Source of the DNA: Alkalispirillum mobile
Lineage (GTDB): Bacteria > Pseudomonadota > Gammaproteobacteria > Nitrococcales > Halorhodospiraceae
Direction: 5' to 3'
DNA length: 64,000 nt
NCBI RefSeq assembly: GCF_003664325.1
Contig: NZ_RCDA01000001.1
Location: 1,054,001-1,118,000, forward strand
The position numbers were made by a program, and so were the translations under genes. Below the pieces are notes generated by a model. The model had not been told where the DNA came from. It saw only the letters and a list, made by a program, of their open reading frames with translations, and made no database searches. Shown one piece after another: positions 20,867 through 46,387 of the stretch (its first letter is position 1; each line of letters opens with the position of its first letter).

Positions 20867-21144
20867 CAGTGATGATCCTCATAATCAATCAGATACGCAT
20901 TGCCGTCTGAGAACTGGAAGGTGAGCCGCCAATTTCCGCTTAAGGTAATGGCCCATATGCCCTTTCGGTTCCCTTTGAGCGGATGCAACCCGTACCCAGG
21001 AATATCCAGGTCAGCAATTTCAACTGCGGTATCGAGGGCTGCCAGCTGCATTTTTAGCCGTTTGGCGTGCTTCGCCTGGATGCCGCGTGTGCTCCCTGTC
21101 TCGTAGTAACGGCGCAATCCCTTGTGCTTGAACGACTTGATCAT
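20866..21144 (-). CDS. higB: HigB-family toxin (RelE-like mRNA interferase)
   Basis: A 92-residue RelE/ParE-fold protein: MIKSFKHKGLRRYYETG, the central KLMLAAL-type helix (RLKMQLAALDTAVEIADL), GYGLHPLKGNRKGIWAITLSGNWRL and the end FQFSDGNAYLIDYEDHH. This is the pattern of HigB toxins that cut mRNA on the ribosome. First gene of the leftmost cassette, followed immediately by its antitoxin. Confidence 0.92.
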   Translation of the reverse strand: MIKSFKHKGLRRYYETGSTRGIQAKHAKRLKMQLAALDTAVEIADLDIPGYGLHPLKGNRKGIWAITLSGNWRLTFQFSDGNAYLIDYEDHH

Positions 21145-21182
21145 GAGCTACATTGTAGCGTGTTGCGCAACGGTGTAAAGCT

Positions 21183-21243
21183 GTATAACGCCTAGCTTCA
21201 GCGGCGCCCGCTTTACGGCGTCCGTTGCAAGCTATTGTTGGGC
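21183..21243 (-). repeat. attC site 1 (61 bp)
   Basis: Cassette-strand cores GCCCAAC and GTTATAC enclose imperfect inverted arms (AGCTTGCAACGGACGCC against GGCGCCGCTGAAGCT). It belongs to the DUF2971 cassette; GCCCAAC complements that cassette's 5' core GTTGGGC. Confidence 0.9.
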
Positions 21244-21302
21244 TTGGCGGAATGTATTTCCAGATGAAATAGCCCCTCTTGGTTGTGTCGCACTTTAATC
21301 AA

Positions 21303-22220
21303 CTATATTCGGAGTTTGCTGTCGTACATATGGACCGCTGCCTTAGCATGCCCGGTCTTCACCTTGAGAAGTTCGAGTGCACGCCTATGGTCCGGGTATA
21401 GTGCGCTTTGGGCACAGAATATTTCCTCCAACGGGAGTGGTTGCTTTTCTTGAGCCACAGCAATCGCTGGAACTATCGCCGCCTCCTTAGTTCGAAATCG
21501 CAACGCTTGATGGTCACTTTCCGTCTCGAAATGCGCAAATTGAAACAATCGCCACTCTCGTTCATCTTGGAATGAAGGATGCTTGAAGAGCATGGCCGCT
21601 GCGAGCAAATGGACGGCGTAAACATCCAATGCCTCATCTGGATGCTTTTCATCAACATATTTTACCGCCCGCCCAAGCGAGCCAATAATTGTATCAACAA
21701 GCCCTTCAGCTATCGCAATCTGCTCACCCGGGTCATATGAAACTTTTCCAAGCGCCCCCGAGTTTTTAAAAAAGCAATTGATCACATCAGAATTCGTGGC
21801 CAATAGCCCCTGCACCTCAAACCCTAGGCACACGCCCTTTTCGAGAGAAAACATTCTCCAAAGCGAAAGAACATCAGGAGTCTCAGAAAAACAAATAATA
21901 AACGGATCATAGGTTTCCAGCTTCTCACGAGCGTAGACTTGCAAAGTCTTCAATATTTCCGATTGATTTGACTCCTGCAAGGCCGCTACACGTCGATTAA
22001 TAACACCCTCTACTACATCCAGACCGTAATCCAATTCGCTTACATCTAGTGAAAACCGTGCGTGGCTTAGCCACAACTCGGATGATTGAAGAATGGAGAA
22101 GACAGATTCTGTCGTAGTGTAGTGATACAAGAAAGCAGGATCTGCGCTCAACGGAAGCACGTCTCCAGCCGCCTCGCAAAATTCGACACAAGCTTTGTGT
22201 GGCAAAAACAAGTTTCTCAT
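21303..22220 (-). CDS. DUF2971 family cassette protein
   Basis: A 305-residue cytosolic protein with the DUF2971 landmarks in order: LYHYTTTESVFSILQSSELWLSHARF, IICFSETPDVLSLWRMFSLEKGVCLGF, GKVSYDP and KHPSFQDEREWRLFQF. The function of DUF2971 is unknown; members are frequent in integrons and defence islands. It is alone in its cassette, which ends with attC 1. Codon use is more AT-rich than in the chromosomal flanks. Confidence 0.8.
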   Translation of the reverse strand: MRNLFLPHKACVEFCEAAGDVLPLSADPAFLYHYTTTESVFSILQSSELWLSHARFSLDVSELDYGLDVVEGVINRRVAALQESNQSEILKTLQVYAREKLETYDPFIICFSETPDVLSLWRMFSLEKGVCLGFEVQGLLATNSDVINCFFKNSGALGKVSYDPGEQIAIAEGLVDTIIGSLGRAVKYVDEKHPDEALDVYAVHLLAAAMLFKHPSFQDEREWRLFQFAHFETESDHQALRFRTKEAAIVPAIAVAQEKQPLPLEEIFCAQSALYPDHRRALELLKVKTGHAKAAVHMYDSKLRI

Positions 22221-22283
22221 TTCTCGTCACTATCTACTTGACATTCGGTGGTGGCAAAGGTCAGGCCGGCTCTCTTAGAGCCC

Positions 22284-22343
22284 GCCCAACGTCGTCCATC
22301 AGCCGCGCCGCTTTTTGGCGTCGGCTGGATGGGCTTGTTCGGC
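22284..22343 (-). repeat. attC site 2 (60 bp)
   Basis: Cores GCCGAAC and GTTGGGC with matched arms CATCCAGCC and GGCTGATGG around a short A-rich loop. It ends the GGCT-like cassette, whose 5' core is GTTCGGC. Translated in one frame it gives the NKPIQPTPKSG string often annotated as a protein in cassette-rich genomes. Confidence 0.92.
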
Positions 22344-22355
22344 CGCAATCTGCTA

Positions 22356-22913
22356 TTACTGTACTGCATCGCGTGCAGTCCACTGGAGCGCCGCCTCGAT
22401 GCGGCGACGGTAACCCGTATCAATCTGCTTCGGTGCAGAACGAACGTAGCGTTCTGCCACTTCTCGTTGGGCGCCTGTAAGGCTGGCCAGATACTTCACA
22501 ATCTGTTCGGCAGAAGGTGTGGTTTCTTCACCGTTGAACTTTGGCGGTAGGTTGGTCCAGACTACATGAGCTATGCCGTGGCCTACGGCCCATTCGGCGA
22601 GACCGGGGATCAGCGCAGGAGATGGATCCCCAACTGACCAAGCACCGATATGCTTTTCTTCGTTTTTCTCAGGAATTCCCTCACGCTTACGGAGCTCCCT
22701 TTTTGCAGAGGCAAGGTCGGCCGCATCCATAACCGCCCACAAGGAGCGGACAGGGCTTTCTGTCTGGACTAGGACCAGCGTTATCCGTCCATCTTGGGAC
22801 TGCCTCACGAACTCAACATGAATTAGCGGTCCATCATCGTACCACTGGCGCTGAATCGCGAGTTCTCGCGGGTCCCAGACGAGGGAGCCCCAACCAAGAC
22901 AGGCTATGGTCAT
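22356..22913 (-). CDS. Gamma-glutamylcyclotransferase-like cassette protein
   Basis: A 185-residue protein starting MTIACLGWGSLVWDPREL. The GWGSL turn after the first strand recalls the YGSN/YGSL phosphate-binding loop of the GGCT (BtrG/AIG2) fold, and LVLVQTESPVRSLWAVMD would be the next strands. Whether it has the catalytic glutamate is unclear. ATG 22913 is chosen because AAGGAGA precedes it and because the earlier in-frame ATG at 22946 lies inside attC 3, outside the usual coding part of a cassette. Confidence 0.6.
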   Translation of the reverse strand: MTIACLGWGSLVWDPRELAIQRQWYDDGPLIHVEFVRQSQDGRITLVLVQTESPVRSLWAVMDAADLASAKRELRKREGIPEKNEEKHIGAWSVGDPSPALIPGLAEWAVGHGIAHVVWTNLPPKFNGEETTPSAEQIVKYLASLTGAQREVAERYVRSAPKQIDTGYRRRIEAALQWTARDAVQ

Positions 22914-22928
22914 CAGTGCGTCTCCTTT

Positions 22929-23006
22929 GCCGAACGCAGAGCGCACCGGTGGCCTTTACAGAGCGAAGCGGCGTAAAGGGCATCCGCGTGACGCGAATTG
23001 TTAGAT
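22929..23006 (-). repeat. attC site 3 (78 bp)
   Basis: Cores ATCTAAC and GTTCGGC with arms AATTCGCG...CGCTCTGCG and an inner CCTTTACGCC hairpin. It ends the two-gene cassette, whose 5' core is GTTAGAT. Confidence 0.9.
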
Positions 23007-23677
23007 TATTCACCAAGTCCCTCACCAAATTCGACTGCCTCATCCCTAGCTTCTTTTTCCAATATTATCCGCGGTAACACTTGGGATGTGTACTTCGCAA
23101 ATGCAAACCATTGAGCTGCCAAAAATATCAATAAACAAATGATAGCTGAAAAGTAGTTGACTAAGTCTGGACTCAAAAGAAAAGGCATGGTTGCTATGAA
23201 ACCCGAGATCGAAAGGAGTCCAAGGCCACTTAACGTCGATACCTGCCGCATATGTTTTTTATTATCACTCGCCGCTTCCTTTGCAATATAAATCCTCATT
23301 GCTTGGCCACTTTTTACGACATCACTATGCTTCTTCTTCAGTCTATCAACATAGGCGTTCATATCCCTTATTGTCGCAAGAAAGTCATATATTTTTGACT
23401 GAAAATACCGATATAGTGTTATTGTGGCCAGCAGTGATATTAAAGAAATTATGTATTCAAGAATGTTGGCGTTTTTAAATATAGAGGAGTCGCCAACCGC
23501 TAAGTCATGTAGCCCTGAACTTAAGAGCTGATGCCAAGCCCGTCCGGTGCCATTTTCAAACAAGAAGTTCACAAAAAATAAATATAAAGAAAAAGTCGCA
23601 AACCCAAAGAAACTGAAAGACCAACCAGTTTCTTCTGCGTACTTTTCTTTGAGAGATGCGATTAGATCAACCATCAT
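23006..23677 (-). CDS. Four-helix membrane protein of the two-gene cassette
   Basis: A 223-residue protein with four hydrophobic segments at about 20-42 (FSFFGFATFSLYLFFVNF), 72-92 (ILEYIISLISLLATITLY), 150-168 (LSGLGLLSISGFIATMPF) and 172-195 (YFSAIICLLIFLAAQWF). A charged helical cytosolic stretch (NAYVDRLKKKHSDVVKSGQA) lies between the pairs. Its start overlaps the stop of the 285-residue partner, so both are translated together. I do not recognise the family. A membrane effector paired with a soluble sensor is one possible reading. Confidence 0.75.
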   Translation of the reverse strand: MMVDLIASLKEKYAEETGWSFSFFGFATFSLYLFFVNFLFENGTGRAWHQLLSSGLHDLAVGDSSIFKNANILEYIISLISLLATITLYRYFQSKIYDFLATIRDMNAYVDRLKKKHSDVVKSGQAMRIYIAKEAASDNKKHMRQVSTLSGLGLLSISGFIATMPFLLSPDLVNYFSAIICLLIFLAAQWFAFAKYTSQVLPRIILEKEARDEAVEFGEGLGE

Positions 23678-24534
23678 TACCCTACGAGGTCGATAAAATA
23701 GATATCGCCAGCATTCGGATCGAAAGCACCATATTCAATGATAGGCGCTCCGATAAAAACCATTTCGTCATTGTTTCCTAAATATGGGTGAGCTTTTACA
23801 AAATCAGAGTCGTCTGCAAACCTAATCGTTAATGTTTTGTCATTTTCTTGGTTGACTATTTTACCATTTAGCAGTTGTCGATCTAGCTGCCTGACTCTGG
23901 CTACATAAACCACAGGCTCGCCAACCTGCCTTTTTGATATGATAGAATGGAATCGTTCGCTCCTGAACCGATTAAATTGATAATTTTCAGTTTTACTACC
24001 CTCCGTAGTTATTTCAAGAACACTCTCACCAGAGTTTCTCGATCGAATCATTGATAGAACTTGATCAATTTCCCTATTAATTGAGCGATCCGCATAACTC
24101 CTAACAACATGCTGCCCGGGGTTATCCACAATATATTGAAATGAGGAGGGTTCTATAATCCCCTTTTCAATTTGATTTTTCCTATTGCTAACCTGTTGCT
24201 GAAGCGAATCGGAAACCTCATCCCCTTCTTGAAGAACCCTATCCATTGCCGGGCCAAGCGCAGAAGAAATACGATCAACTATCACTTTACCAGAATCCGA
24301 TAACAACTTCTGAACGAAACCACCTTCTTCAGGGTATAGCGCTATAAAGTCAGCGGCGTGATAGTCATCGGCCTTCATCCTCGCATGTTTCCAGAGATTC
24401 CCGTATTTAAGATCGAGGAACGCTCTATCTACCGCATTCTGTGTGTGAACGAGCGACCTTCCCAATGTACGAGCGGAAACAAAATGATTCGAAACGATAT
24501 CTCCATCAAAGTGGAGGGTCAGGCTTGAGCTCAT
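23677..24534 (-). CDS. Soluble partner of the two-gene cassette, unknown function
   Basis: A 285-residue protein without signal or membrane segment. It opens with a beta-strand-like LTLHFDGDIVSNHFVSARTL and a helix GRSLVHTQNAVDRAFLDL. An amphipathic stretch with Q/N-rich turn follows (DSLQQQVSNRKNQIEKG), then a beta-rich C-terminal half from ESVLEITTEGSKTENYQFNRF to GDIYFIDLVG. The FDGD...A..LGRSL start recalls a family of roughly 250-300 residue proteins (DUF7946-like) found near membrane partners; that link is from memory and unproven. Confidence 0.7.
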   Translation of the reverse strand: MSSSLTLHFDGDIVSNHFVSARTLGRSLVHTQNAVDRAFLDLKYGNLWKHARMKADDYHAADFIALYPEEGGFVQKLLSDSGKVIVDRISSALGPAMDRVLQEGDEVSDSLQQQVSNRKNQIEKGIIEPSSFQYIVDNPGQHVVRSYADRSINREIDQVLSMIRSRNSGESVLEITTEGSKTENYQFNRFRSERFHSIISKRQVGEPVVYVARVRQLDRQLLNGKIVNQENDKTLTIRFADDSDFVKAHPYLGNNDEMVFIGAPIIEYGAFDPNAGDIYFIDLVG

Positions 24535-24553
24535 AGCTATCCCATTTTTTTAA

Positions 24554-24637
24554 ATCTAACGCCGCCAGCACGTGCGGCTTTGTAGTGAAGGCGAAGCCGT
24601 AACGGAAAAGCCGTCACTGTGACTGGCTTTGTTAGGG
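24554..24637 (-). repeat. attC site 4 (84 bp)
   Basis: Cores CCCTAAC and GTTAGAT with arms AAAGCCAGTC...GGCTTTG. The first core contains the stop codon of the 275-residue gene. CCCTAAC complements that cassette's 5' core GTTAGGG. Confidence 0.9.
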
Positions 24638-25459
24638 CTCGCCACTCTCGGCCTCGGCCTGGAATTCGATTTTAGGCGGTAGCTCGCTCATTGCATAATG
24701 AACAAACTGTTGACCTAGCCCGGTCAGCTCATAGCCTTCGTTTTCGTCAAATGCCGAAACTGGCGGTTTTGGACCACTTCCCTTGGGTCTTCGTTGCGAA
24801 GGCTTTGGTACGAAGTTACCGAACCGGTCTACCTCCCGGTGCTGACGGATGATGCTGCCCGTACTTAAATCACGAAATAGCAGCTTGTACAAATCAGCAT
24901 CAGCTGAATCTTCACGTACAGGCCCCTTACCAATTTTTCGCCAAATTTCACCGCGGGTTATGCCACCGCTGTTATAGATTGCTCCAATAACTTGGAAGTG
25001 CATTTCCGAATATTGGCTGATCCAATCAATGTACATACGCACTACATCATCGCTGGAAACTGTAGTGGCAGCCGCGTTCGACAGAATGTTACGGATATAG
25101 ATGCGCTTTTCTTCGCTTTCAGCACCAGCCCACTCACGGAATGTCTTCTTTACTAACGACTGGTATTCCTTGCTTTCAACTCGTTCCGCGATGGACTCAT
25201 CCTGAAGGTCAAGGCGAGCCATAATCTCGATAATGGTTTCTTCCTTTTCCTTCAGCTCATCCTGAAGCATTCGTATCCAGTGCTCAAAAAATCGATTTAC
25301 CCTATCCTGCTCCGCTTCGGACCAAGCGCCTGCAATAGCTGAGAACACACCACCGGCGAAAGGAATAGCACCTCCGATCGCCTGAAGCGCCCCACGTGAA
25401 TATTTCGCGACTCTCTTTCCTTTTGGGACTTCATCTTCGGAGTTATTTTCATCTGTCAT
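24632..25459 (-). CDS. Cassette protein of unknown function with glycine-rich hydrophobic helix
   Basis: A 275-residue protein. A charged N-terminus leads into a hydrophobic, glycine/alanine-rich segment at about 24-45 (ALQAIGGAIPFAGGVFSAIAG). A long amphipathic helix with a Glu/Lys-rich end follows (FFEHWIRMLQDELKEKEET). A middle helical part (KTFREWAGAESEEKRIYIRNILSNA) precedes a C-terminal winged-helix-like part (IGAIYNSGGITRGEIWRKIG). The pore-like N-terminal helix suggests membrane insertion, but I do not recognise the family. AGGAGCAC precedes the ATG. Alone in its cassette. Confidence 0.7.
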   Translation of the reverse strand: MTDENNSEDEVPKGKRVAKYSRGALQAIGGAIPFAGGVFSAIAGAWSEAEQDRVNRFFEHWIRMLQDELKEKEETIIEIMARLDLQDESIAERVESKEYQSLVKKTFREWAGAESEEKRIYIRNILSNAAATTVSSDDVVRMYIDWISQYSEMHFQVIGAIYNSGGITRGEIWRKIGKGPVREDSADADLYKLLFRDLSTGSIIRQHREVDRFGNFVPKPSQRRPKGSGPKPPVSAFDENEGYELTGLGQQFVHYAMSELPPKIEFQAEAESGEP

Positions 25460-25475
25460 ATTGTGCTCCTTGGGT

Positions 25476-25592
25476 CCCTAACGCCCGCTTCAGCTGCGCC
25501 GAAACCGAAGCGCTTTTGTGTTATTGTTTGAGCGCAGCGAGTAACACAAAAGCGCGTGGGTTTTGGCGTCAGTCTGGAAGCGCTTGTTAGCT
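25476..25592 (-). repeat. attC site 5 (117 bp)
   Basis: Cores AGCTAAC and GTTAGGG. Between the arms is a long extra hairpin built from TTTTGTGTTA and TAACACAAAA around GAGCGCAGCGAG. A near copy of this hairpin is in attC 7 and a shorter one in attC 10. Confidence 0.88.
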
Positions 25593-26894
25593 GCCGTCAT
25601 CATCTTGCCGCCGGTGTCGGTCATCAAGCTCCTCATTTACAGCGATAACAGCAGCCCTACCAGATTCTAAAGTGCTTCGAATAACATCTCTAAGAATGGA
25701 AGATTGATGGATATTTGTTCCGACCCAACCACCGGAAGCTATATTGATAAATTCAGTATTTCCAAAGTATCGGCGTACATTTTTATACGAAAGCCTTTTT
25801 CCACCCTTTGGCCCTACAGTATCTGGATGCATAGATATTAGTTTCCAATAATCTAGTGGTAAATACATTCCTACTGAAAGTCCAATATTGTCTGGATTAA
25901 AAACAAGTCGAGGACATATTTTTAGGAAAAATGGGTTTTCAGACAATCTAAAGCCATCAGCTTCTGTATTTGAATTCGCGGCACCCAATTGTGTTAGTAG
26001 GGCATCCATTCTTCGAATTTCTTCCGTCAATTGTGAGTTAGGGAATCTAAATACCGCCTCTCCATTTTCATGCTCCATAGCCTTGTATTGAACCATCAAG
26101 AAACACTGAAATGTTTCATTATAGTAAATAAGATCTGTTCCAGTTTGTTCTTCGAGAGGGAGTCTATTAGCCAGAATCACGGTAAGTCTGCTTTGGGTAT
26201 TCTCAAAAACAGTAGAGCCGTGAACATACGACTGAACTTCTTCATGCCCTGGGAATTCTTTTAGGTCATTTGCAACCATCTGGTCTTCTCGGAGCCTTAC
26301 TTTAGGGAGACCAGCAATAAATGATACCGGCCCAGACTCCACTGAATAATCCCAACCAGAAATTTCATTTCGATCTATCCCGGCAATTCCTAAAGCTGTT
26401 CCAACAGCTTCCTTTTGCTCCGCCAATGAATGCAATATTTCACCGGGCAGTGTAGCTATTCTGGTTCGGCGCTCTTCGCGATATTTAGCTAGAATTGGTG
26501 CTGATTCCGGAGACAAATCACTTACAGCTGATATAACTTCCTCAAATGCTTTTGGTGATAAAAGCCCTCCATAACTTAAGCGCGCTTCGACTCTAGATTT
26601 GCTTCTATTTGAAACACGGGAGATTATTTTGTTGGCAGGAATGGGAGGTTTTACGGTGAAAAAACTGCCCATGTTTAATCGTCTAAGATCGGTGCCGGCA
26701 AGCCGACCTCGGGAGCCAAGGCAAATATGCGTTAAATTGCCTTCCCTTGAGACAACGAAACATACAAGAGGCACATTTCGGCTATGCTCAAACTCAGGAA
26801 CAGCCTCGGCAAATTTTCCCTCATCAAATCTATCGTCAAAGACTTGCTGCCGTTCGGCTGAAAATCTGAGAATGTACCCGGCTGATTTTTTCAT
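25587..26894 (-). CDS. Large cassette protein, possible PD-(D/E)xK nuclease
   Basis: A 435-residue protein unrelated to its neighbours. An N-terminal region (YILRFSAERQQVFDDRFDEG) and a helical middle are followed near residues 245-275 by GTDLIYYNETFQCFLMVQYKAM. An acidic residue, then a beta-hairpin and a strand ending QYK, is what the core of Mrr/PD-(D/E)xK nucleases looks like. No ATPase or methylase accompanies it. If correct it could be a stand-alone DNA-cutting effector; the match is by eye only. The stop codon lies within attC 5. Confidence 0.65.
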   Translation of the reverse strand: MKKSAGYILRFSAERQQVFDDRFDEGKFAEAVPEFEHSRNVPLVCFVVSREGNLTHICLGSRGRLAGTDLRRLNMGSFFTVKPPIPANKIISRVSNRSKSRVEARLSYGGLLSPKAFEEVISAVSDLSPESAPILAKYREERRTRIATLPGEILHSLAEQKEAVGTALGIAGIDRNEISGWDYSVESGPVSFIAGLPKVRLREDQMVANDLKEFPGHEEVQSYVHGSTVFENTQSRLTVILANRLPLEEQTGTDLIYYNETFQCFLMVQYKAMEHENGEAVFRFPNSQLTEEIRRMDALLTQLGAANSNTEADGFRLSENPFFLKICPRLVFNPDNIGLSVGMYLPLDYWKLISMHPDTVGPKGGKRLSYKNVRRYFGNTEFINIASGGWVGTNIHQSSILRDVIRSTLESGRAAVIAVNEELDDRHRRQDDDGS

Positions 26895-26919
26895 TATTCT
26901 CTCTGTGCTGCAAAAAGGC

Positions 26920-26997
26920 AGCTAACGCCCGGCTCACGCGCTGATTTTGAGCCGCGAAACGGCGAAAAATCGGTCGCCGTGCAGCCGATTGTTAGGT
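26920..26997 (-). repeat. attC site 6 (78 bp)
   Basis: Cores ACCTAAC and GTTAGCT with arms AATCGGCTGCACGGCGACC and GCGTGAGCCGGGCGTT. It holds the stop codon of the cyclase-like gene; ACCTAAC complements that cassette's 5' core GTTAGGT. Confidence 0.9.
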
Positions 26998-27729
26998 ATG
27001 AATGATGAAGGCATTCCGCTTAACTTCGCTCTCAAGGTACTCTTTAAACCACCACCACTTGTACCTGACTGGCTCTGGATGATTGGCCCCCAAATTGGCT
27101 TCAATGATACGAGAGTAATTTTCAAAGGCCCGCTCCGCCGCACCATGGGATTTGTCTTGTATGTAGTAGTCATGCAACACGTTGACTATGAAGTGGTTCA
27201 TGTACTCAAGGCACATCGTGTTGGAACTACCCTCAGTGCTAACCCAATGGTTTTTGGCATTCGGTGACAACTCGACCCGGGGAACAAGGGTTTTTGTCTC
27301 TATCTGATATACCTCCTGATAAGCAGGGCCTACGATGTTTGAATCGGTGTGCCAAACGCCGCCGACGGATATTCCTCCTCGGAGCAAGTATCCTCTAGAC
27401 AGCAAAATATGACTTATCTGAATAACGCGCATTACCAGAATCGACAATCCGCGGTAACTGGGCATTTGGCTTGAGGTCAGCGGAGCACTCAGAATGATGC
27501 TGTCTGATATGTAGAGGTGCTTTGGAATTAAGTCCTTGGGCACCGTGTGATCTACCGTCCCATCCAGCTTTGGAACAGCACTCTCCAACACGTCAATTAA
27601 TGACTCTAGTTCCGTATGCTCTTGCCCGCCTTGGCCTGCCGCGTCGACGACCTGCTTAAAGCCAAGGACGTCAATGAAAGCTACGGCTCGATCCTCAAAT
27701 TTGATCTTCGGCACTGACTCTCCCTTCAT
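26992..27729 (-). CDS. Class III nucleotidyl-cyclase-like cassette protein
   Basis: A 245-residue protein with a cyclase-fold pattern. AVAFIDVLGFKQVV (D20) matches the first metal-binding strand of class III cyclases (F-x-D-I-x-G-F). YISDSIILSAP (D76) sits at the second metal aspartate. LLRGGISVGGVWH and NIVGPAYQEVYQIE recall the G-I-x-x-G and N-A-x-R-L-E parts. Class III-like cyclases make the signal in Pycsar defence, but many of these short relatives are uncharacterised. The ATG directly follows the attC 7 core without a ribosome site; a GTG at 27714 (residue 6) has GGGAG five bases upstream and may be the true start. Confidence 0.7.
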   Translation of the reverse strand: MKGESVPKIKFEDRAVAFIDVLGFKQVVDAAGQGGQEHTELESLIDVLESAVPKLDGTVDHTVPKDLIPKHLYISDSIILSAPLTSSQMPSYRGLSILVMRVIQISHILLSRGYLLRGGISVGGVWHTDSNIVGPAYQEVYQIETKTLVPRVELSPNAKNHWVSTEGSSNTMCLEYMNHFIVNVLHDYYIQDKSHGAAERAFENYSRIIEANLGANHPEPVRYKWWWFKEYLESEVKRNAFIIHT

Positions 27730-27847
27730 ACCTAACGCCCGGCACAGCGGTAGCCGTAACGTAGCGATTTTGTGTTAATGTTTAAGCGACAGCGAGTAAC
27801 ACAAAACCGCGCAGTGTAGGCTATCCGCCTGCTGCCGTTTGTTAGAA
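27730..27847 (-). repeat. attC site 7 (118 bp)
   Basis: Cores TTCTAAC and GTTAGGT. It contains the same kind of extra hairpin as attC 5 (TTTTGTGTTA/TAACACAAAA). It ends the HEPN cassette, whose 5' core is GTTAGAA. Confidence 0.9.
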
Positions 27848-27852
27848 GCATG

Positions 27853-28344
27853 TTACACATTCGGATAATCCTGTATCCATCTGTCGGAGCATCCTCTTTG
27901 CTTGTATAACGCAACTGTTTTCTTAATGAAAGTATCAGCAACGCCAAGCAATGCTCCAGTTGCCCCGCCCCGTGCATTCGGTTCGTACATGTATCTATCC
28001 TTTACGAACGTATACCTGTAGGCCTCTAAAATGTCGATGGTATAATTGCTTTCAAATTGCCTTTTTACATCAGCAGGAAGGGCATTGAACAACGCTATTA
28101 AATCATGCTTATTCGCACCCTTCGGAAGAGCACTGTCGTTAAAATTGTACTTCTCGTTCAGCAATCCAGAATTCGCAGAGACTCTGGCATTAAAGCTCTT
28201 CAATATAATTTCAACAGAGAGAGCTGCATTGACTACGGACACACTGAAATTCTGGCTCCAAAGAGACTCCGCAGCCTTGAGGTAGCCATGTGCAGTCTCA
28301 ACCATATACGCTGCCATAACCCACTGTTCGCTATTGGTATTCAT
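27853..28344 (-). CDS. HEPN-like cassette protein
   Basis: A 163-residue, all-helical protein. YLKAAESLWSQNFSVSVVNAALSVEIILKSF is the helix pair typical of HEPN domains, followed by HDLIALFNALP. The segment EAYRYTFVKDRYMYEPN resembles the conserved R..F..RY turn that precedes the last helix. HEPN proteins include RNases of toxin-antitoxin and abortive-infection systems, but the catalytic R-x4-6-H is not evident here. An MNT-type antitoxin partner is absent. The next cassette downstream carries the cyclase-like gene. Confidence 0.7.
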   Translation of the reverse strand: MNTNSEQWVMAAYMVETAHGYLKAAESLWSQNFSVSVVNAALSVEIILKSFNARVSANSGLLNEKYNFNDSALPKGANKHDLIALFNALPADVKRQFESNYTIDILEAYRYTFVKDRYMYEPNARGGATGALLGVADTFIKKTVALYKQRGCSDRWIQDYPNV

Positions 28345-28362
28345 AGACCTCTATAGCCTGCC

Positions 28363-28422
28363 TTCTAACGTTAGCTCTCAGCCGCGTGCCTTTTGCACGT
28401 CGGCTGAAGAGCTTTGTTGGGC
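28363..28422 (-). repeat. attC site 8 (60 bp)
   Basis: Cores GCCCAAC and GTTAGAA with nearly perfect arms (AAAGCTCTTCAGCCGACGTGC against GCACGCGGCTGAGAGCTAAC) around an AAAA loop. It ends the secreted-protein cassette. Confidence 0.93.
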
Positions 28423-28424
28423 GC

Positions 28425-28925
28425 CTACTTGTAGAATTCGGAAAAACGCACTTCCGTGATGTCGGCTTCTTCCGCCCCAGAGCGCCAAAGCGCGCTCGTT
28501 ATGATTGGCGACTCGAGATCAAGACAGTCGCCTTCGAAACCGGTGCGTAAGAGCAACTTGTTTTCCTTGTGGAACGTAACCCATGCTGACATATGAGCAC
28601 CGCAGCGGCCTTGAATGTTGCGATTGCCTGGCGAGGGTCCGATTTCCACGACATAGGATCCATCGCTCAGTTCGCATTCCCTTCGCACAGTGTTCTCTGT
28701 AGTGATTCTGTCGCCGGTCACTTCAACAAGTTCCCAAGGGTTGATTCCATCCTTCCCCAATCGCTGCATCAGTTCCTCACCCTCCTCGTTGTACGCACCG
28801 AGGTAGTAGACGGCGACAAAATCCTCTGCTTTTTTGCAATCGTACTGGACAGCAACGTGGAAGGAATCTGCGTAAACTGAAAGCGACAGCATGACCGAAG
28901 CCATTACCACTGCTGATCGAAGCAT
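28425..28925 (-). CDS. Secreted cassette protein of unknown function
   Basis: A 166-residue protein with a signal peptide (LRSAVVMASVMLSLSVYA, cleavage near YADSF). The mature part has several cysteines (YDCKKAED, RRECELSD, QGRCGAHM, GDCLDLE) that could form disulfides in the periplasm. The ATG at 28925 follows AAGGAGAAG; a TTG codon one triplet upstream is less likely. No family recognised. It is one of two genes in the array with a clear export or C-terminal membrane signal. Confidence 0.7.
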   Translation of the reverse strand: MLRSAVVMASVMLSLSVYADSFHVAVQYDCKKAEDFVAVYYLGAYNEEGEELMQRLGKDGINPWELVEVTGDRITTENTVRRECELSDGSYVVEIGPSPGNRNIQGRCGAHMSAWVTFHKENKLLLRTGFEGDCLDLESPIITSALWRSGAEEADITEVRFSEFYK

Positions 28926-28941
28926 CAATCTTCTCCTTTAC

Positions 28942-29014
28942 GCCCAACGCCCAAGCTCACTTGCCGCTATGGAGCGGGAGCGGAATAGCGGTCAAGTGGA
29001 GCGCCTTGTTGGGC
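28942..29014 (-). repeat. attC site 9 (73 bp)
   Basis: Cores GCCCAAC and GTTGGGC, with arms AAGGCGCTCCACTTGACCGC and GCGGCAAGTGAGCTTGGGCG. It ends the OLD-nuclease cassette. Confidence 0.92.
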
Positions 29015-29020
29015 GCTTTT

Positions 29021-30682
29021 CTACTGTGAAACGAGCGCATTAATCTTCGCAGCAAGAGGATTCAGATCAATACCGTTCTGTGCCACCTGAAGCATCACAT
29101 GCTGGGGTTTTCGGTGAGGACGCCCTGCCGGTGCGATACCAATAAACCTCTCCAAGTCTTCAGGAAACGTATCTATACCTCCGGTAAACTCATTGGATGC
29201 TGCCTGAATCGTCTGGTCTATTGGCGCATGTCTTCCATTATCGAAGTCGTAAAGCACATAATGCCTGATGCCAAAAGACTGAAATAACCGCATAAACCGG
29301 TGAATGTTATATTTGCCAATAGTGTCGAGAACAAATACACCCTTACAATCCGGCAACAATCCGTGGTCAAACATATAAGTTAAGAGAGCTGTTTCGGTTG
29401 GGCCCTCGACTAACAGCACCTTTTCGGCGAAGAATGCTGAACTTCGTTTTTGGTCCAACCAAAGCGCGTATTTTACGGCCTCCATGTCAGTCTGGAGATC
29501 GTCTTGGTCAATGGGGATGCCTGCAGCCTGCCACGCCTGGGCATCCTGTTGATTCACTGTTAGAACCCTGTCTAGCTCGTCACTCGATACTTGGTAGCTT
29601 CTTGTTCTGCAATCTTCTCTCTGCAACCTGCAGATTGCCGTGATATTGCGGATACTGTGAGTAGCGAATTGCGGGTTGTGAGTAGACAGAAGCACCTGCG
29701 AGCCTAAACTTTCTGACAAAGACCTCAGATCTGAGTTCAATGAGCTTACCTGAGTTGGATGTAGAAATGCTTCTGGCTCTTCAAACAATATCCATGTCAG
29801 CTCAGGCGAAAATTCCTTCTTTTTTGGGGACTTCTTTTTGGGACCGTACCTCGCCGCTACACGAATCAAAGTATAGATAACGCTTCTTTGAAATCCTTGG
29901 CCGTACGCCGAAATTGGTTGAGCTTTGTCCATTGACTGATCAATGATCTCGTGGTTAACAAGGCCTTTTATAATGTCATCTACGCCAACTGGGCTTATAT
30001 TTAGCCTAAATCCCGCCCCCCAATCAGACAGTTCCTCCGAAATGTCAGTTTCAATACTTTGAAGCGAATAACCCTCCGCAGTAGATTCAGTCTTGATCGC
30101 GCCCTCAAACTCACTGAATGACTCACTTAATGCCTGGTAGGCACCTGACTCTTCCATTACCCTTGAGAGAACCGTATTTACAAGGTCTCTGAGTGCCGAG
30201 GGGCCTGTTAATTTTGTGTGCTCGTCAATCTTAGAAACTGCCGGAATATAGATGATCTCGCCAAATTTACCCTGCCCCACGTTTTTGAAGCCGTAAAATC
30301 TTTCTTCGGATAATTCACCATTCACATAGGCATATGGGCCAGAACGCTCTTTTCCTTCCTTGTCTTTTTGATCTGAGGAGAGATAACTTCTTACTCTAAA
30401 CGTATCGTTTTCCGACCGGTACTCATCTTTTAATGTACCGATCTCCTCAGCAGAAGGCTTAAACTCAATCTCAACCCATGACTCATTATCTTCCGCACCT
30501 TTGTGAGGGAAGTCACGACTCTTATCAAACTTGACCCCTTTTCCATAGAAGGCCCGGATCGCATCAATGACTGTTGTTTTCCCTGCGTTATTGACGCCCA
30601 CAAGAATTCCGTATTCCGCTAGCGTTATCGACGCATCGCAGATTGAACGGAAGTTGTGGATTTTAATTTCGACAGCTTTCAT
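29021..30682 (-). CDS. OLD-family ATPase/TOPRIM nuclease
   Basis: A 553-residue fusion of an ABC-type ATPase and a TOPRIM nuclease. Walker A is GVNNAGKTT near residues 29-37, Walker B is WILFEEPEAFLHP with an H-loop near STHNPQF, and the TOPRIM has VLLVEGPTETALL with the metal aspartates in YDFDNG. No UvrD-like GajB partner is encoded beside it, so it looks like a class 1 OLD protein rather than Gabija. P2 OLD excludes phage lambda. The ATG at 30682 has AAGGGAG upstream; an earlier start at 30718 falls inside attC 10 and is rejected. Confidence 0.9.
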   Translation of the reverse strand: MKAVEIKIHNFRSICDASITLAEYGILVGVNNAGKTTVIDAIRAFYGKGVKFDKSRDFPHKGAEDNESWVEIEFKPSAEEIGTLKDEYRSENDTFRVRSYLSSDQKDKEGKERSGPYAYVNGELSEERFYGFKNVGQGKFGEIIYIPAVSKIDEHTKLTGPSALRDLVNTVLSRVMEESGAYQALSESFSEFEGAIKTESTAEGYSLQSIETDISEELSDWGAGFRLNISPVGVDDIIKGLVNHEIIDQSMDKAQPISAYGQGFQRSVIYTLIRVAARYGPKKKSPKKKEFSPELTWILFEEPEAFLHPTQVSSLNSDLRSLSESLGSQVLLSTHNPQFATHSIRNITAICRLQREDCRTRSYQVSSDELDRVLTVNQQDAQAWQAAGIPIDQDDLQTDMEAVKYALWLDQKRSSAFFAEKVLLVEGPTETALLTYMFDHGLLPDCKGVFVLDTIGKYNIHRFMRLFQSFGIRHYVLYDFDNGRHAPIDQTIQAASNEFTGGIDTFPEDLERFIGIAPAGRPHRKPQHVMLQVAQNGIDLNPLAAKINALVSQ

Positions 30683-30700
30683 AGTGCTCCCTTGCTTGGC

Positions 30701-30772
30701 GCCCAACGCTTTGCTCACCGGTAAATTAGGAGCGCAGCGAGTAATTTATCCGCGTGCAGCAACTTGTTATGC
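30701..30772 (-). repeat. attC site 10 (72 bp)
   Basis: Cores GCATAAC and GTTGGGC; inside is GATAAATTACTCGCTGCGCTCC, related to the extra hairpins of attC 5 and 7. It holds the stop codon of the rightmost cassette gene. GCATAAC predicts a 5' core GTTATGC, found at 31549-31555. Confidence 0.9.
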
Positions 30773-31552
30773 CCCGTTGCTTGAAAGCACTCCATAAACC
30801 TGAAGCGCAGCCAAGAGCACCAAGACAAATGTAAGCCAGTTTAGTGCGCGCTTTTGCTTTACGTTGTCACGATGCTTTCGCTCCTGCTCCTCATACTGCG
30901 CCAATGTTTCCAACGCCTTTGGCGATACACTGTAACAACTCCCGTCAGACTTTAGGTCGCCACTTTGGGCCAAGGAATCGAGTGCAAGCTTATAGTATTC
31001 CAGTACGCCGCTCTTTGAGGGATGATGCACCCAACGGTTTGTATAGATTTCACTCATCACACCGATATGGCTTATCTTGAACTGTGGGTTTTTAATCGTA
31101 TGCTCCACAAGATCTCGTAATAGAGTTATTCGCTCATTCCGAACAAGCCTTTTACGGTTAAACAGAGCCTGCTGTATAACATCAAAAGCAACCACGAAAA
31201 CTGGAAAATGAAGGAGGTCCCGCACAATGAATCGTAATGCAGATGAATAGTTGAAATTCCATAACCCGTAATAATGCTGTATCTCGGGTACGAAATGCCT
31301 AAGGTTGTATGTGGGAATAGAAGTCTGAAGCTCAAAAGTACCTTCATGAAGAGCTCTACCCTGTACAACACGGCCATCAAACTCGTCTACCAGCACGTGC
31401 AAATCTCCATGTTCCGCCCGCAGATAGACTACGTAGCCATCAACGGCAGCCCCAGCCTCGCCACTTCTAGGTATGGGATTCGGGGCAGGTTTACGTAGTG
31501 CTCGTTTCAGTGCGTACTCAAGGAATCTCATGGATAAATATTCATCCGGCAT
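30767..31552 (-). CDS. Cassette protein with C-terminal membrane anchor
   Basis: A 261-residue protein of unknown function. The C-terminal end holds one hydrophobic helix (LNWLTFVLVLLAALQVYGVL) after a basic stretch. A central region (RNERITLLRDLVEHTIKNPQFKI...GVLEYYKLALDSL) looks like a winged-helix fold. The frame is open up to an ATG at 31603, but the cassette's predicted 5' core GTTATGC (31549-31555) lies inside it, so the 17 upstream codons come from outside the cassette. ATG 31552, within that core, or ATG 31531 is the likely original start. Neither has a strong ribosome site. Confidence 0.65.
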   Translation of the reverse strand: MPDEYLSMRFLEYALKRALRKPAPNPIPRSGEAGAAVDGYVVYLRAEHGDLHVLVDEFDGRVVQGRALHEGTFELQTSIPTYNLRHFVPEIQHYYGLWNFNYSSALRFIVRDLLHFPVFVVAFDVIQQALFNRKRLVRNERITLLRDLVEHTIKNPQFKISHIGVMSEIYTNRWVHHPSKSGVLEYYKLALDSLAQSGDLKSDGSCYSVSPKALETLAQYEEQERKHRDNVKQKRALNWLTFVLVLLAALQVYGVLSSNGA

Positions 31553-31555
31553 AAC

Positions 31556-32128
31556 AGTTGATTCTACTGCGTCTGTATAAGTCATAATATGCTGCAGCCG
31601 CATATCACCAGAGGGGTTTTCGTCGCGGGCAAATCCATACCAAAAAAAACACGTACACCGTCAGTCACTTGTGCCCCAGCAAACCTCAAATCAACGTCAA
31701 CTCCACCCAGTGCTATACAGACACCGAACCCGACCCCCCACCACAGCCAATCAGCGCCCGCTCCATCACACCCACTCGCCCTTGCTGCCTGAGTCCCATC
31801 GAGCCCTCATGTCCTGCACCTTGACCCGCACCCGGCGACACGGCGCTTAGGTCGACCAGCCGTTTGAAGATCTGCCCCTTCAGCTGTTCCGGGCCGGCCA
31901 AACTGCCCTCCGGGGGTGAGCGATGTTGATATATGCAGAATAGCAAGGTCGTGCGCGACGTCACATCGGTTGCGTCGTCGCAGGCCTCCCGGAAGCATCA
32001 CTGTCCGTCATCCGAACACCTCTAACTGTCCGAAATACGGTCACTACAACCGCATCAGCAGTCCTGCATTAGGCAACAGACCTTCATATCTTCTTGTTTT
32101 TGCGTAAAAACCTCTGCGCACCAGAATA
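31556..32128. other. Non-coding stretch between array edge and acx promoter
   Basis: About 570 bp where attI and intI would be expected (upstream of the first cassette). I see no integrase, no second cassette core and no convincing gene. Short frames at 31713-31964 and 31807-32001 (minus) are low-complexity and unsupported. Composition rises back to the chromosomal level near 31800. The right end contains the upstream elements of the acx operon. Confidence 0.5.
32002..32043 (+). promoter_or_regulatory. Tandem dyads, likely activator sites of the acx operon
   Basis: Two imperfect inverted repeats share one format: TGTCCG-N5-CGAACA at 32002-32018 and TGTCCG-N5-CGGTCA at 32027-32043. Their centres are 25 bp apart. 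They lie about 100-140 bp before the sigma-54 promoter, the normal distance for enhancer-binding activators, so AcxR is the obvious candidate. Confidence 0.55.

Positions 32129-41931: not shown

Positions 41932-41935
<4 letters not shown>
40670..41935 (+). CDS. M42-family metallopeptidase
   Basis: A 421-residue dinuclear-metal aminopeptidase of the glutamyl aminopeptidase/TET/FrvX type. Likely metal ligands are in IGHADKIRMQV (H-x-D), AYLDNGLGCF (bridging Asp), IASYEEIGRFGS (catalytic and ligand Glu), VDVNHDY and NMHTISETAN (His). These match the usual HxD, DDxxG, EEVG and MHSxxE motifs with small changes. A Gly/Lys-rich tail follows residue 395. Its stop overlaps the photolyase-like start. 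Confidence 0.85.
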
Positions 41936-43191
<1,256 letters not shown>

Positions 43192-43288
43192 CTCCGCCGC
43201 GCTGGAGTGCCCGACGGCTTCGACACATTGCAGGGGGCGCATTAAACTGACCGTCGGTTCATTGCGGCCCAGGCCGGAGCACAGCAAT

Positions 43289-44056
43289 ATGTCGAGCAAT
43301 CACGCCGAGCAGGATCGGACGGTCGACCCGGAAGAGGTGGCCCGCTACCGCGGGCTGGCCGAGATGTGGTGGCAACCGGATGGCAAACTGTGGCCCCTGC
43401 ACGTGCTCAACGCCCTGCGCACCGACTACATCCGGGACCAGCTCTGCCGCTCACTGGGCCGTGACGCGGCGGTTGATCAACCGCTCGCTGGCCTGCGGAT
43501 GCTGGATATCGGCTGTGGTGGCGGGCTCTTGAGCGAAGCGATGGCCCGACTCGGGGCCGACGTGCTCGGTGTGGACGTGGTGGACAGCAATATCGCCGTG
43601 GCCCGCCTGCACGCCCGCGAACAGGGGCTGGCGATCGACTACGAGCTGAACAGCGCCGAGGCCCTGGCCGACCGGGGTGAGCAGTTCGACGTGGTGCTCA
43701 ACATGGAGGTGGTGGAGCACGTGGCGGACCTGCCGGCATTCATGCGGAGCGTCAACCGTATGGTACGCCCGGGCGGGCACACCTTTGTCTCGACCATAAA
43801 CCGCAACCCGATCTCGTTCATCGTGGCCATTCTGGGTGCGGAGTACGTCTTCAATATCCTGCCGAAGGGCACCCACCAGTGGAAACGGTTTGTCACCCCG
43901 ACCGAGACCCGGGATCTGCTGGCCGAGGACGACCTGACCGTGATTGAGCAGACGGGGGTCAAGGTGAACCCGCTGAACCGGAAGATGTGGTTGTCACCCT
44001 CGATGAGTGTCAATTACATGGTGCTGGCCCGAAAAGGCCATCCCTCGGCGACCTGA
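43289..44056 (+). CDS. ubiG: Ubiquinone biosynthesis O-methyltransferase
   Basis: A SAM-dependent methyltransferase, 255 residues, that does both O-methylations in ubiquinone synthesis. AEMWWQPDGKLWPLHVLNALR is the UbiG substrate signature, LDIGCGGGLLSE is SAM motif I, VVLNMEVVEHV is motif II and STINRNPISF is the family's post-II segment. The ATG at 43289 follows CCGGAGC; an upstream TTG at 43262 is less likely. A ubiquinone pathway supports a proteobacterial host. Confidence 0.96.
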   Translation: MSSNHAEQDRTVDPEEVARYRGLAEMWWQPDGKLWPLHVLNALRTDYIRDQLCRSLGRDAAVDQPLAGLRMLDIGCGGGLLSEAMARLGADVLGVDVVDSNIAVARLHAREQGLAIDYELNSAEALADRGEQFDVVLNMEVVEHVADLPAFMRSVNRMVRPGGHTFVSTINRNPISFIVAILGAEYVFNILPKGTHQWKRFVTPTETRDLLAEDDLTVIEQTGVKVNPLNRKMWLSPSMSVNYMVLARKGHPSAT

Positions 44057-44115: not shown

Positions 44116-44574
44116 TCAGGCCTCGCTACCCCCCTGGTCCAGAAGCGCGCGCAGTCTCTCGTTCTCTGCCTCCGCCTCGACCTGGGCCGTGATGTCGTAC
44201 TGCACCCCCAGGTAATAGATGAGCCGGCCACGGGGGTCCCGCAGCGGCGTCAACGACAAGCGGTTGTAGAACAGCGTCCCGTCCTTGCGGTAATTCCGTA
44301 ATGTCACCGTGATCGACTGCTCGGCGGCAATCGCGTCGCGCAAGGCCGCCACCTCCGGCTGATCCGTATCCTCCCCCTGCAAAAACCGGCAGTTATGGCC
44401 GATGGTCTCGTCCTGGCCATAGCCAGTCATCCGCTCGAACACCGCATTGGCGTAAACCAGCGGCATGTCCGGCTCGTCCGGGTCCGCAAGGGTGATCCCC
44501 GTGACGCAATTGTCGAGCATTTCGGTCAACACCGCCGGGATGACGCCCGGGTCTTTCTCTACGACGAAGGTCAT
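44116..44574 (-). CDS. Short LOV-domain blue-light photoreceptor
   Basis: A 152-residue single-domain protein. GHNCRFLQGEDTD has the photoactive Cys (C62) that forms the flavin adduct. NYRKDGTLFYNRLSLTP (N94, N104) and GVQYDIT (Q125) provide the other flavin contacts. The usual GRNCRFLQG reads GHNCRFLQG, a conservative change. A C-terminal Jalpha-like helix (QVEAEAENERLRALL) could dimerise; no output domain is attached, as in short LOV proteins of Pseudomonas putida. It is preceded by an SRPBCC gene in the same direction. Confidence 0.9.
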   Translation of the reverse strand: MTFVVEKDPGVIPAVLTEMLDNCVTGITLADPDEPDMPLVYANAVFERMTGYGQDETIGHNCRFLQGEDTDQPEVAALRDAIAAEQSITVTLRNYRKDGTLFYNRLSLTPLRDPRGRLIYYLGVQYDITAQVEAEAENERLRALLDQGGSEA

Positions 44575-44595
44575 GGCAGTGCCCTCATGCAGGGG

Positions 44596-45075
44596 TCAGG
44601 GGTCGGGCGCGTGGCCACCCTCTTCGATTAGACCCTTGAGATTGTGAACGGTGCGCTCCGCACCCTCTTGAACAGAGACCTGGACCAGCTTTCGGAAGGG
44701 CCTAAGGCGCAACTCAAGGCGCGGGAATTCAAAGCGAAAGAGGAGCAGCGATTCATCCTGCCCCGAACCCGTGCGATCGAGACGGTAAGTGCAGATGAAA
44801 TCGGAGGAGACGCCAACGAACACAAGCTCCAGCGGGCGCTGGAAGCGCGACACGCGGAAGGTGGAGACCGTCTTGTGCCCCTGGTCGATGCGTGTCTGCC
44901 GGGCAAACCAGTCCTCGTCCATGGCGCCCGCGCTTAGCACCTGGAGCTGCTGGACCTCCGGCGACCAACGGGGGTAATTCCGCTCGAAGTCATCGGCGAT
45001 AAAGCTGAAAACCGACTCCACGGGCCGGCGGATACGAATATCACACTCACCGACAACAGCCTGGCTTCCGAACAC
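44596..45075 (-). CDS. SRPBCC (START-like) family protein
   Basis: A 159-residue protein with the hydrophobic-pocket SRPBCC fold: GECDIRIRRPVESVFSFIADDFERNYPRWSPEV at the N-terminus, alternating strands, and a long C-terminal helix (FRKLVQVSVQEGAERTVHNLKGLIEEG). Such proteins bind lipids or aromatic ligands. It ends 21 bp before the LOV gene, so the two are likely co-transcribed. Its ligand is unknown. Confidence 0.78.
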   Translation of the reverse strand: MFGSQAVVGECDIRIRRPVESVFSFIADDFERNYPRWSPEVQQLQVLSAGAMDEDWFARQTRIDQGHKTVSTFRVSRFQRPLELVFVGVSSDFICTYRLDRTGSGQDESLLLFRFEFPRLELRLRPFRKLVQVSVQEGAERTVHNLKGLIEEGGHAPDP

Positions 45076-45301
45076 GGCACCCCCTGCTCCAACGGCAAGT
45101 CACCCGGGCGCGTCACCCGTGAGCCTAAAGCATGGCCCCGTATCCCTGATCGATCAACTGTCGCCTGCGTCACAAATGGCAGCATTCCCCGCTCCTGTAA
45201 CAACGGCTTCAAAAGAACGTCATACGCCGCGGGCATAGTTCGCACCCGTTACCACTCACCCGCAGCAGACGTTTTCGGGGCCCATCCCGCAGGAGCTTTG
45301 A

Positions 45302-46387
45302 ATGATGAAAAAGCAGCGCACGACTCTCGCCAGCCTGGCAGCGGCAGCCGCCACCGGCCTGCTGATCCACGCCACCGCCCACGCCGGCCAGACCATCGAT
45401 GCCGACGATGTGGATGCCGGCCAGGTGCAACTGTCCGATGACGTGCTCACCGTCTACCTGCACGACCACGGCAGTGCTATCGCCGAGCGTTTCACCGAGG
45501 ACACCGGCATCGAGGTTCAGATCGTCGACATGAGTGGCGGCGAGATCCTGGCCCGCATCGAGGCCGAGCGTGCCAACCCGCAGTGGGACGTGGTGTACGT
45601 GATGGGCCATGGCAGCGTGCACCGGCTGTACAGCGAAGGCCAGTTGCTGGACGACGGCTGGCAGCCGGAAGCAGCCCAGAACTACACCGACATGGCCAAC
45701 GAGATCTACCAGCAGCACCCGGAAGCTGCCTGGTGGCCGGTCACCATCAGCGCCCCGGCCCTGCTGGTCTACAACCCCTCCTGCGAGGGCACCGAGGACA
45801 TCACCGGCTGGGACGCCCTGCGCGACCCGCAGTTCGAGGGCCGCGTGGGCATGCCTGATCCGGCCATCTCCGGCCCGGCCTACCCCTACGTCTCCTGGTT
45901 CTTCGAGGAAAACATGGAGGACGGCTACGCCTTCTGGCAGGACGTGTTCGACAACGGGGTGCGCATGTACCGCTCCAACAGCCCGGTGGCCGAGGCCCTG
46001 GCGGCGGGCGAGATCTGCGTGGCCGGCCTGGAAGAGCCCAACACCTACGGTGAGGTGGAAAAGGGCGAGGACATCGGCATCGTCTACCCCGAGGAAGGCA
46101 CCCCCGGCTCCGCCCGCGGCGTCGGCATCTCCGCCGACACCTCCGTGCCCGAGGACGCCAAGGCCTTCATCGAATGGCTGCTCAGCGCCGAAACCCAGGC
46201 GTACCTGACGCAGATCGAGCACCGCAACAAGTACTTCGTGCCGGTCATCGAGGGTGTCAGCCCCAACGACCTGCTGCCGCCCAACGACTTCCTGGGTGAA
46301 GTGACCCCCTACATCTTCTCCGACTACGTCTGGGCCGGTGAGAAGGAGCACGAGATCAAGCGCTGGTTCAGCGACCAGAGCATGTGA
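45302..46387 (+). CDS. ABC transporter periplasmic binding protein (Fe3+/AfuA type)
   Basis: A 361-residue exported binding protein. Signal peptide to about residue 28 (HATAHAGQ). The fold is the family-1 two-lobed type: VLTVYLHDHGSAIAERFTEDTGIEVQIVD, then QWDVVYVMGHGSVH and ARGVGISADTSVPEDAKAFIEWL. Relatives bind Fe3+, 2-aminoethylphosphonate, polyamines or thiamine. The tyrosine pair that binds iron in FbpA is not clear, so the substrate stays open. AGGAGC precedes the ATG. First of three overlapping genes. Confidence 0.85.
   Translation: MMKKQRTTLASLAAAAATGLLIHATAHAGQTIDADDVDAGQVQLSDDVLTVYLHDHGSAIAERFTEDTGIEVQIVDMSGGEILARIEAERANPQWDVVYVMGHGSVHRLYSEGQLLDDGWQPEAAQNYTDMANEIYQQHPEAAWWPVTISAPALLVYNPSCEGTEDITGWDALRDPQFEGRVGMPDPAISGPAYPYVSWFFEENMEDGYAFWQDVFDNGVRMYRSNSPVAEALAAGEICVAGLEEPNTYGEVEKGEDIGIVYPEEGTPGSARGVGISADTSVPEDAKAFIEWLLSAETQAYLTQIEHRNKYFVPVIEGVSPNDLLPPNDFLGEVTPYIFSDYVWAGEKEHEIKRWFSDQSM

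Follow-up and report, generated by a model that had tools for sequence, protein, structure and literature searches.

A short LOV gene and an SRPBCC gene form a conserved pair in two classes of Pseudomonadota and may encode one blue-light module

We analyzed a 64,000-nucleotide stretch of the Alkalispirillum mobile genome, referred to here as the window. On its minus strand a gene for an SRPBCC protein is followed by a gene for a short LOV protein, and plus-strand genes flank this pair on both sides (Table 1). The initial annotation had given this gene order and the spacing, and we confirmed the coordinates and the strand. Elsewhere in the window, the G+C content falls to 46-55% at 20001-32000 (about 12 kb) versus 67% before and 60-66% after this segment, as in acquired DNA.

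Table 1. Features around the gene pair in the window, and fatty acid hydroxylase genes found beside pairs in other genomes
Feature	Coordinates	Strand	Remarks
SRPBCC gene (Polyketide_cyc2, START-like helix-grip)	45075..44596	minus	159 aa; GTG start; first gene of the pair
Spacer between SRPBCC and LOV genes	44575..44595	minus	21 bp
Short LOV gene	44574..44116	minus	152 aa; no output domain; Cys62 and flavin residues; second gene of the pair
Upstream region	45076..45301	minus	Common to the pair and the divergent substrate-binding protein gene; presumed promoter of the pair
ubiG	43262-44056	plus	TIGR01983, 267 bits; runs towards the pair
Photolyase-like gene	41932-43191	plus	PF03441; runs towards the pair
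Substrate-binding protein gene	45302-46387	plus	Runs away from the pair
Fatty acid hydroxylase genes	L144:8983-9783, L145:6438-7259, L093:10994-11830		59-71% identical to the first

The LOV protein contains the motif N61-C62-R63-F64-L65-Q66, which matches NCR(F)(L)(Q) and includes the adduct cysteine, and it carries the further flavin contacts R79, N94, N104 and Q125. It had been described as having the flavin residues and the adduct cysteine but no output domain. The residues are indeed present, and Pfam detected no second domain, with PAS-type matches only (residues 18-132). Its length, together with an N-cap and a C-terminal stretch that are conserved by alignment and presumably helical, is that of a short LOV protein. 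The best solved relative found in a sequence search of solved structures is 6hmj (E 4e-35). The model of the YtvA family, NF052652, scored 156.7 bits over residues 16-140, where the family cut-off is 250. Among the 26 LOV proteins of the same clade (defined below), C62 is kept in all and each of the four further flavin contacts in 24 to 26, and the position of Q66 is a histidine in the 12 members from genus g15 in the alignment. On the basis of these residues, the window LOV protein probably senses light through a flavin-cysteine adduct. A structure model of the LOV protein was built from two sequences, reached a pLDDT of 54 and was discarded.

The SRPBCC protein matches PF10604 with 34.5 bits (cut-off 27.4, E 3e-8). 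An AlphaFold2 model built from five sequences predicts a helix-grip fold with a long C-terminal helix at a pLDDT of 87.7; the other four models of the run had pLDDT values of 54.8-80.7. The nearest PDB matches to the model are PYL abscisic acid receptors, MSMEG_0129, TTHA0849 and TcmN/ZhuI (Z 16-18), with 138-151 residues aligned at 6-19% identity. When solved structures were searched with the sequence, nothing convincing was retrieved (best E 0.19), and a search of plasmids gave no match. A ligand pocket would be expected from the helix-grip fold, although the fold alone shows no function.

The initial annotation had made its reading depend in part on the co-occurrence of the two families in other genomes. 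We found the pair in 25 places in 23 genomes from two classes, the window included, always with the SRPBCC gene first and both genes on the same strand. Searching 54 genomes of the order for the SRPBCC protein gave matches in 17 others besides the window's own genome, and in 16 of these 17 (all but G025) the next gene downstream, on the same strand, is a LOV gene. The spacing over the 17 pairs of the order, own pair included, ranges from -4 to 75 bp, and in 5 of them the stop codon of the first gene overlaps the start codon of the second. In a sample of the class (369 genomes, own included; SRPBCC profile threshold E 1e-12), the SRPBCC profile matched 7 other genomes, and the pair was found in 5 other genomes (G394, G317, G374, G207 and G300). 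Genome G300 has two pairs in tandem, and the genes of the first are about 430 bp apart. A sample of the phylum (398 genomes), searched with the LOV profile only, added G589 from another class, which has three LOV proteins of the clade, two of them with an SRPBCC gene directly upstream. The class and phylum samples were drawn evenly, and the ten or nine best first-look candidates were scored per genome. The gene caller missed the SRPBCC gene in four loci (L078, L081, L085 and L011), where profile searches recovered it. L009 is the same record as L014 and was counted once.

We quantified the co-occurrence within the order and the class sample. In the order, the clade LOV is present in 17 of 54 genomes, the SRPBCC protein in 18 and both in 17 (Fisher p 4e-13; 1e-12 with the own genome left out). 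In the class sample, the corresponding counts are 6, 8 and 6 out of 369 genomes (Fisher p 8e-12; 4e-10 with the own genome left out). These p values overstate the association, as the species are related and not independent and the profiles were built from members. The pair had been called uncommon, and the presence of the clade LOV in 6 of 369 genomes, own included, agrees with this. The LOV profile separated the clade cleanly: in the order, 17 genomes scored ≥ 253 bits and are exactly the pair genomes, with the rest at ≤ 162 bits, and in the class sample the 6 genomes with ≥ 252 bits are again exactly the pair genomes, the next scoring 170. The protein distances of the LOV and SRPBCC members correlate over the 25 pairs with r 0.90, a value that 0 out of 2000 permutations reached; this correlation and the co-occurrence are also expected from plain co-inheritance of an operon. 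The dN/dS ratios of both genes are 0.03-0.11 in four close genome pairs, and both genes are under purifying selection. The conserved gene pair is thus confirmed as real.

We placed the pair LOVs in a tree of LOV and LOV-like domains. Of 63 domains found, 58 were kept after removing a duplicate (L123, identical to L060) and domains with <117 residues or <60 bits; the tree was built without the named Pseudomonas LOVs and without two Thiocapsa LOVs that were found later. Twenty-six domains fall in one clade (support 100/99), separate from the 32 others, and 25 of the 26 are paired with an SRPBCC gene. The remaining member, in G589 (L143:1492-2964, minus strand), is fused to the C-terminus of a regulator with DJ-1_PfpI and AraC helix-turn-helix domains, and no SRPBCC gene was seen in the 16 kb read around it. 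This fusion protein is possibly a light-dependent GlxA-type transcription factor. In the two Thiocapsa genomes, a clade LOV (248-249 bits) and an SRPBCC gene are both present and unlinked, with no SRPBCC gene in the 12 and 10 kb read around the LOV genes. Outside the clade, none of 25 LOV loci (24 different places, of which some are truncated at contig ends) had an SRPBCC gene within about 1.5 kb, and none was seen beside the non-clade LOV locus L141.

The SRPBCC gene also occurs without a LOV partner. It was found in four genomes where no clade LOV was detected (G025, G413, G315 and the Thiohalocapsa genome G798), and G317 and G207 have second copies without an adjacent LOV gene. The SRPBCC protein therefore has a role that does not need the LOV protein. 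The unpaired gene adjoins apparent ribosomal protein genes in Thiocapsa (L011 and L012) and an apparent HtrA-like protease gene in G317, G207 and G413 (L094-L096), as named by eye from the sequence. The unpaired copies, the unlinked genes of the two Thiocapsa genomes and the free change of flanking genes are what one would expect if the two genes were chance or hitch-hiking neighbors with no common function. We nevertheless consider this very improbable, given that the pair recurs 25 times in 23 genomes of two classes despite the changing flanks, that the 25 other LOV places have no SRPBCC gene and that dN/dS is low.

We compared the 26 clade LOVs with 34 other LOV or LOV-like domains (one place was represented twice, and 28 of the 34 have the cysteine) and identified residues specific to the clade. 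K7 and D8 are found in 26 of 26 clade members and in none of the five other domains reaching that far. I12 is likewise present in all clade members versus 0 of 13 others, T28 versus 1 of 33, P32 versus 1 of 32, and Y126 versus 1 of 34. L111 and L122 are each invariant in the clade and occur in 3 of the 34 others. F3 is also invariant among clade members, with no comparison outside the clade. By analogy with other LOV proteins, we take these residues to lie in the N-cap, just after the N-cap, and in the Hbeta and Ibeta strands. The N-cap and the beta-sheet are the parts thought to relay the signal of short LOV proteins to an unknown partner, according to the portion of PMC4335406 available to us.

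Conservation in the SRPBCC protein is broader. At least 23 of the 25 paired members keep N33, Y34, R36, W37, P39, V41, R59, Q60, R62, D64, F115, E116, P126, F127 and more, and most of the residues conserved in the paired proteins are also conserved in eight unpaired copies. These residues thus mostly mark the fold or a ligand site. Two positions in the C-terminal helix differ between the groups: K129 is present in 25 of 25 paired versus 4 of 8 unpaired copies, and Q136 in 23 of 25 versus 3 of 8. The unpaired copies that keep both residues come from Thiocapsa, which has the clade LOV elsewhere in the genome, and from Thiohalocapsa (L010), in which none was found. K129 and Q136 are candidates for a contact with the LOV protein, although the difference may only follow the tree, since L010 keeps both residues in a genome where no clade LOV was detected.

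We read the flanks of the pairs for genes that could extend the module, and no gene was constant beside the pair across genomes in these flanks. Lipid and redox enzymes recur near the pairs and point firmly to no pathway. In genus g15, an SDR-type cluster (one member scanned) is near the pair in 7 of 12 loci and a small-protein cluster in 12 of 12, with a DUF4864 match in one of its two members scanned. A cyclopropane-synthase-type methyltransferase gene is near the pair in G014, a pyridine-nucleotide oxidoreductase gene lies upstream of the pair in G374, and fatty acid hydroxylase genes (PF04116) are beside pairs in G300 and, twice, in G589, which belong to two different classes. We also observed a bacteriorhodopsin-like gene divergent from the pair in G317 (L090:9194-9952). 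In eight g15 loci (including L077:10580-10978), a gene 1.5-6.3 kb away from the pair's LOV gene encodes a small LOV-like PAS protein that lacks the adduct cysteine and has PGMLQG or PGVLQG in place of NCRFLQG.

The direction of control within the pair might be the reverse of the one that we favor. The SRPBCC protein could act on the LOV protein by bringing or withholding a ligand or a membrane position, and so tune a LOV protein that works with a third, unlinked output protein. The pocket expected from the helix-grip fold and the position of the SRPBCC gene at the head of 25 of 25 pairs are compatible with such a role, and the clade LOV that is fused to an AraC-type regulator suggests a transcriptional output for the clade. 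However, the sequences show no direction of control, and the flanks read contain no constant third gene. We regard this alternative as improbable.

The initial annotation had also counted a photolyase-like gene within 2.5 kb as a member of a small blue-light locus. The distance is correct, but membership did not hold up: the gene is on the opposite strand, behind ubiG, and is adjacent to the pair nowhere else. In G394 and in 14 further pair genomes of the order, it is separated from the pair by hundreds of kb or lies on a different contig. Besides the own genome, 19 genomes of the order and 10 of the class sample have relatives with 41-64% identity. In the order, the gene is present in 15 of 17 pair genomes versus 5 of 37 others; without genus g15 the counts are 3 of 5 versus 3 of 35 (p 0.018). 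Among the genomes of the class sample, 2 of the 6 with the pair (the own genome and G394) carry it versus 9 of 363 others, and with the own genome left out it is found in 1 of 5 pair genomes (p 0.13). The photolyase-like gene is thus a genome-level correlate of the pair in the order and hardly outside it. In the encoded protein the PF03441 FAD-binding domain comes first (residues 88-214), and the last 190 residues have a weak match to PF00875 (DNA_photolyase) that is below the cut-off (E 0.077); the product is possibly a photolyase or cryptochrome with swapped domain order. In the order, 12 of 17 pair genomes have rhodopsin genes versus 3 of 37 others. Without genus g15 the counts are 1 of 5 versus 2 of 35 (p 0.34), and rhodopsin was rejected as a correlate of the pair.

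We searched the upstream regions of 24 pair loci (the second pair of G300 was left out) for TGTAC direct repeats with 11-bp spacing. Such repeats lie 100-104 bp upstream of the pair in three loci (G006, G009 and G014; at most one mismatch). They are lacking in the other 21, including the presumed promoter of the window pair, and 10-, 12- and 13-bp spacings and an N12 form were not found upstream of any pair. CarH repeats are described as TnnACA in 11-bp steps (PMC9304148, seen in part), and the promoters of the three loci fit this form only partly. A genome-wide pattern derived from these three promoters, whose own hits are therefore not independent, gave 26 hits in five genomes versus 19 for a reversed-pattern control, and most hits are unannotated. 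No exact repeat was found at 23 photolyase-like loci. With repeats at 3 of 24 loci and genome hits hardly above control, LitR/CarH control of the pair is a lead only. As further observations, G015 has a one-mismatch repeat just before its rhodopsin gene and G006 has one near a lipocalin gene, and in genus g15 (L018-L029) a conserved block near GGGTTAAGGTG, often followed by TGTCCA, precedes the SRPBCC start.

These repeats bear on another explanation, namely that the two proteins are co-regulated and do not touch. They would then belong to one light or stress operon, with the LOV protein acting on another regulator and the SRPBCC protein serving as a lipid or pigment carrier in photoprotection. 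There is a precedent in PmSB-LOV, which acts through a LitR protein encoded nearby (PMC9758184, seen in part). TGTACA direct repeats in 11-bp steps, like CarH/LitR operators, also occur in the window's own genome at G000:C1:68125 and 158368 (L157 and L166), immediately before genes for a DUF1722/2-thiouracil desulfurase and for GTP cyclohydrolase I; FolE is given as a light-inducible, PplR-dependent gene in Pseudomonas putida in the part of PMC9758184 that we consulted. LitR-sized frames with B12-binding_2 were found in 2 of 10 pair genomes searched (G006, 385 aa; G300, 304 aa), and in G014 and G015 a MarR-family gene lies no more than about 2 kb from the pair. Yet the loci read have no single regulator gene in common beside the pair, and Pfam identified no MerR/LitR gene among the seven neighbors of the window LOV gene (37.5-46.4 kb). 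The only PF02607 match in the own genome is in a 1236-aa frame of MetH-like size, although a class II LitR may escape this model. The lack of the repeat at 21 of 24 loci, including that of the window's genome, further weakens the case for co-regulation, which would also leave unexplained why this LOV clade tracks the SRPBCC protein. We consider co-regulation without contact rather unlikely.

A LOV protein without an output domain that is found beside an SRPBCC gene in distant bacteria suggests that the SRPBCC protein is the missing partner. We therefore propose, with moderate confidence, that the two proteins form one blue-light module, with the SRPBCC protein as a separately encoded partner that replaces the missing output domain. 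For this module we infer physical contact between the two proteins, its dependence on light, the ligand and a link to membrane or pigment photoprotection. The LOV protein would sense blue light via the flavin-cysteine adduct, and light would alter the N-cap and the face of the beta-sheet. These changes would establish or disrupt contact between the LOV and SRPBCC proteins. This contact could switch the hold of the SRPBCC protein on a hydrophobic ligand (a lipid, isoprenoid, carotenoid or quinone), or alternatively its docking on a third protein. Ligand-bound PYL receptors, for instance, dock on phosphatases. A more specific form of this proposal, which we put forward only tentatively, is a split light-gated lipid receptor, in which the short LOV protein controls a START/PYL-like protein that holds, releases or presents a hydrophobic ligand. 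If so, the SRPBCC protein might be a START-type effector for a LOV sensor in at least two classes of Pseudomonadota, adjoining lipid-modifying enzymes in some genomes.

Short LOV proteins of bacteria lack an output domain, and few have a known partner. LitR is the one partner of a bacterial short LOV named in the papers that we consulted (PMC9758184). The SRPBCC protein is a conserved partner candidate that differs greatly in kind from LitR; it is small and probably soluble, and through it the question of what a short LOV protein acts on becomes testable. If the partner role is true, it would be a new way for light to control a cell, and if the SRPBCC protein is light-gated, it would offer a compact means of controlling ligand or lipid binding by light. 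In the PMC literature searched, which leaves subscription papers mostly outside, we found no papers joining a LOV domain with SRPBCC or polyketide cyclase and none joining light-inducible genes with SRPBCC. No earlier description of the pair was thus found there, and an earlier mention may exist.

We compared the pair to known systems. The window LOV protein has the LOV core in common with the blue-light photoreceptors of the YtvA family. That family has a STAS domain, whereas no STAS was found in the window LOV protein, and the NF052652 score is far below the family cut-off. The helix-grip fold of the SRPBCC protein is common to PYR/PYL receptors, the bacterial START proteins MSMEG_0129 and TTHA0849 and the TcmN/ZhuI aromatase-cyclases, at the identities given above. 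For the SRPBCC protein of the pair no hormone ligand or phosphatase is known. DsLOV from Dinoroseobacter shibae and RsLOV are, like the window protein, short LOVs whose N-cap is thought to relay the signal; the likeness is by description only, and no SRPBCC partner is described for them in the part of PMC4335406 available. The pair LOVs form a clade of their own in a tree that holds none of the named Pseudomonas LOVs. A parallel in arrangement, and the precedent for the proposed module, is PmSB-LOV of Pseudomonas mendocina, a short LOV without an output domain whose separately encoded partner, the class II LitR protein PmlR2, is encoded nearby. PmSB-LOV binds PmlR2 in the light only and thereby frees PmlR2 promoters (PMC9758184, seen in part). 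Its partner is a MerR/LitR DNA-binding repressor, whereas the candidate partner in the window pair is an SRPBCC protein.
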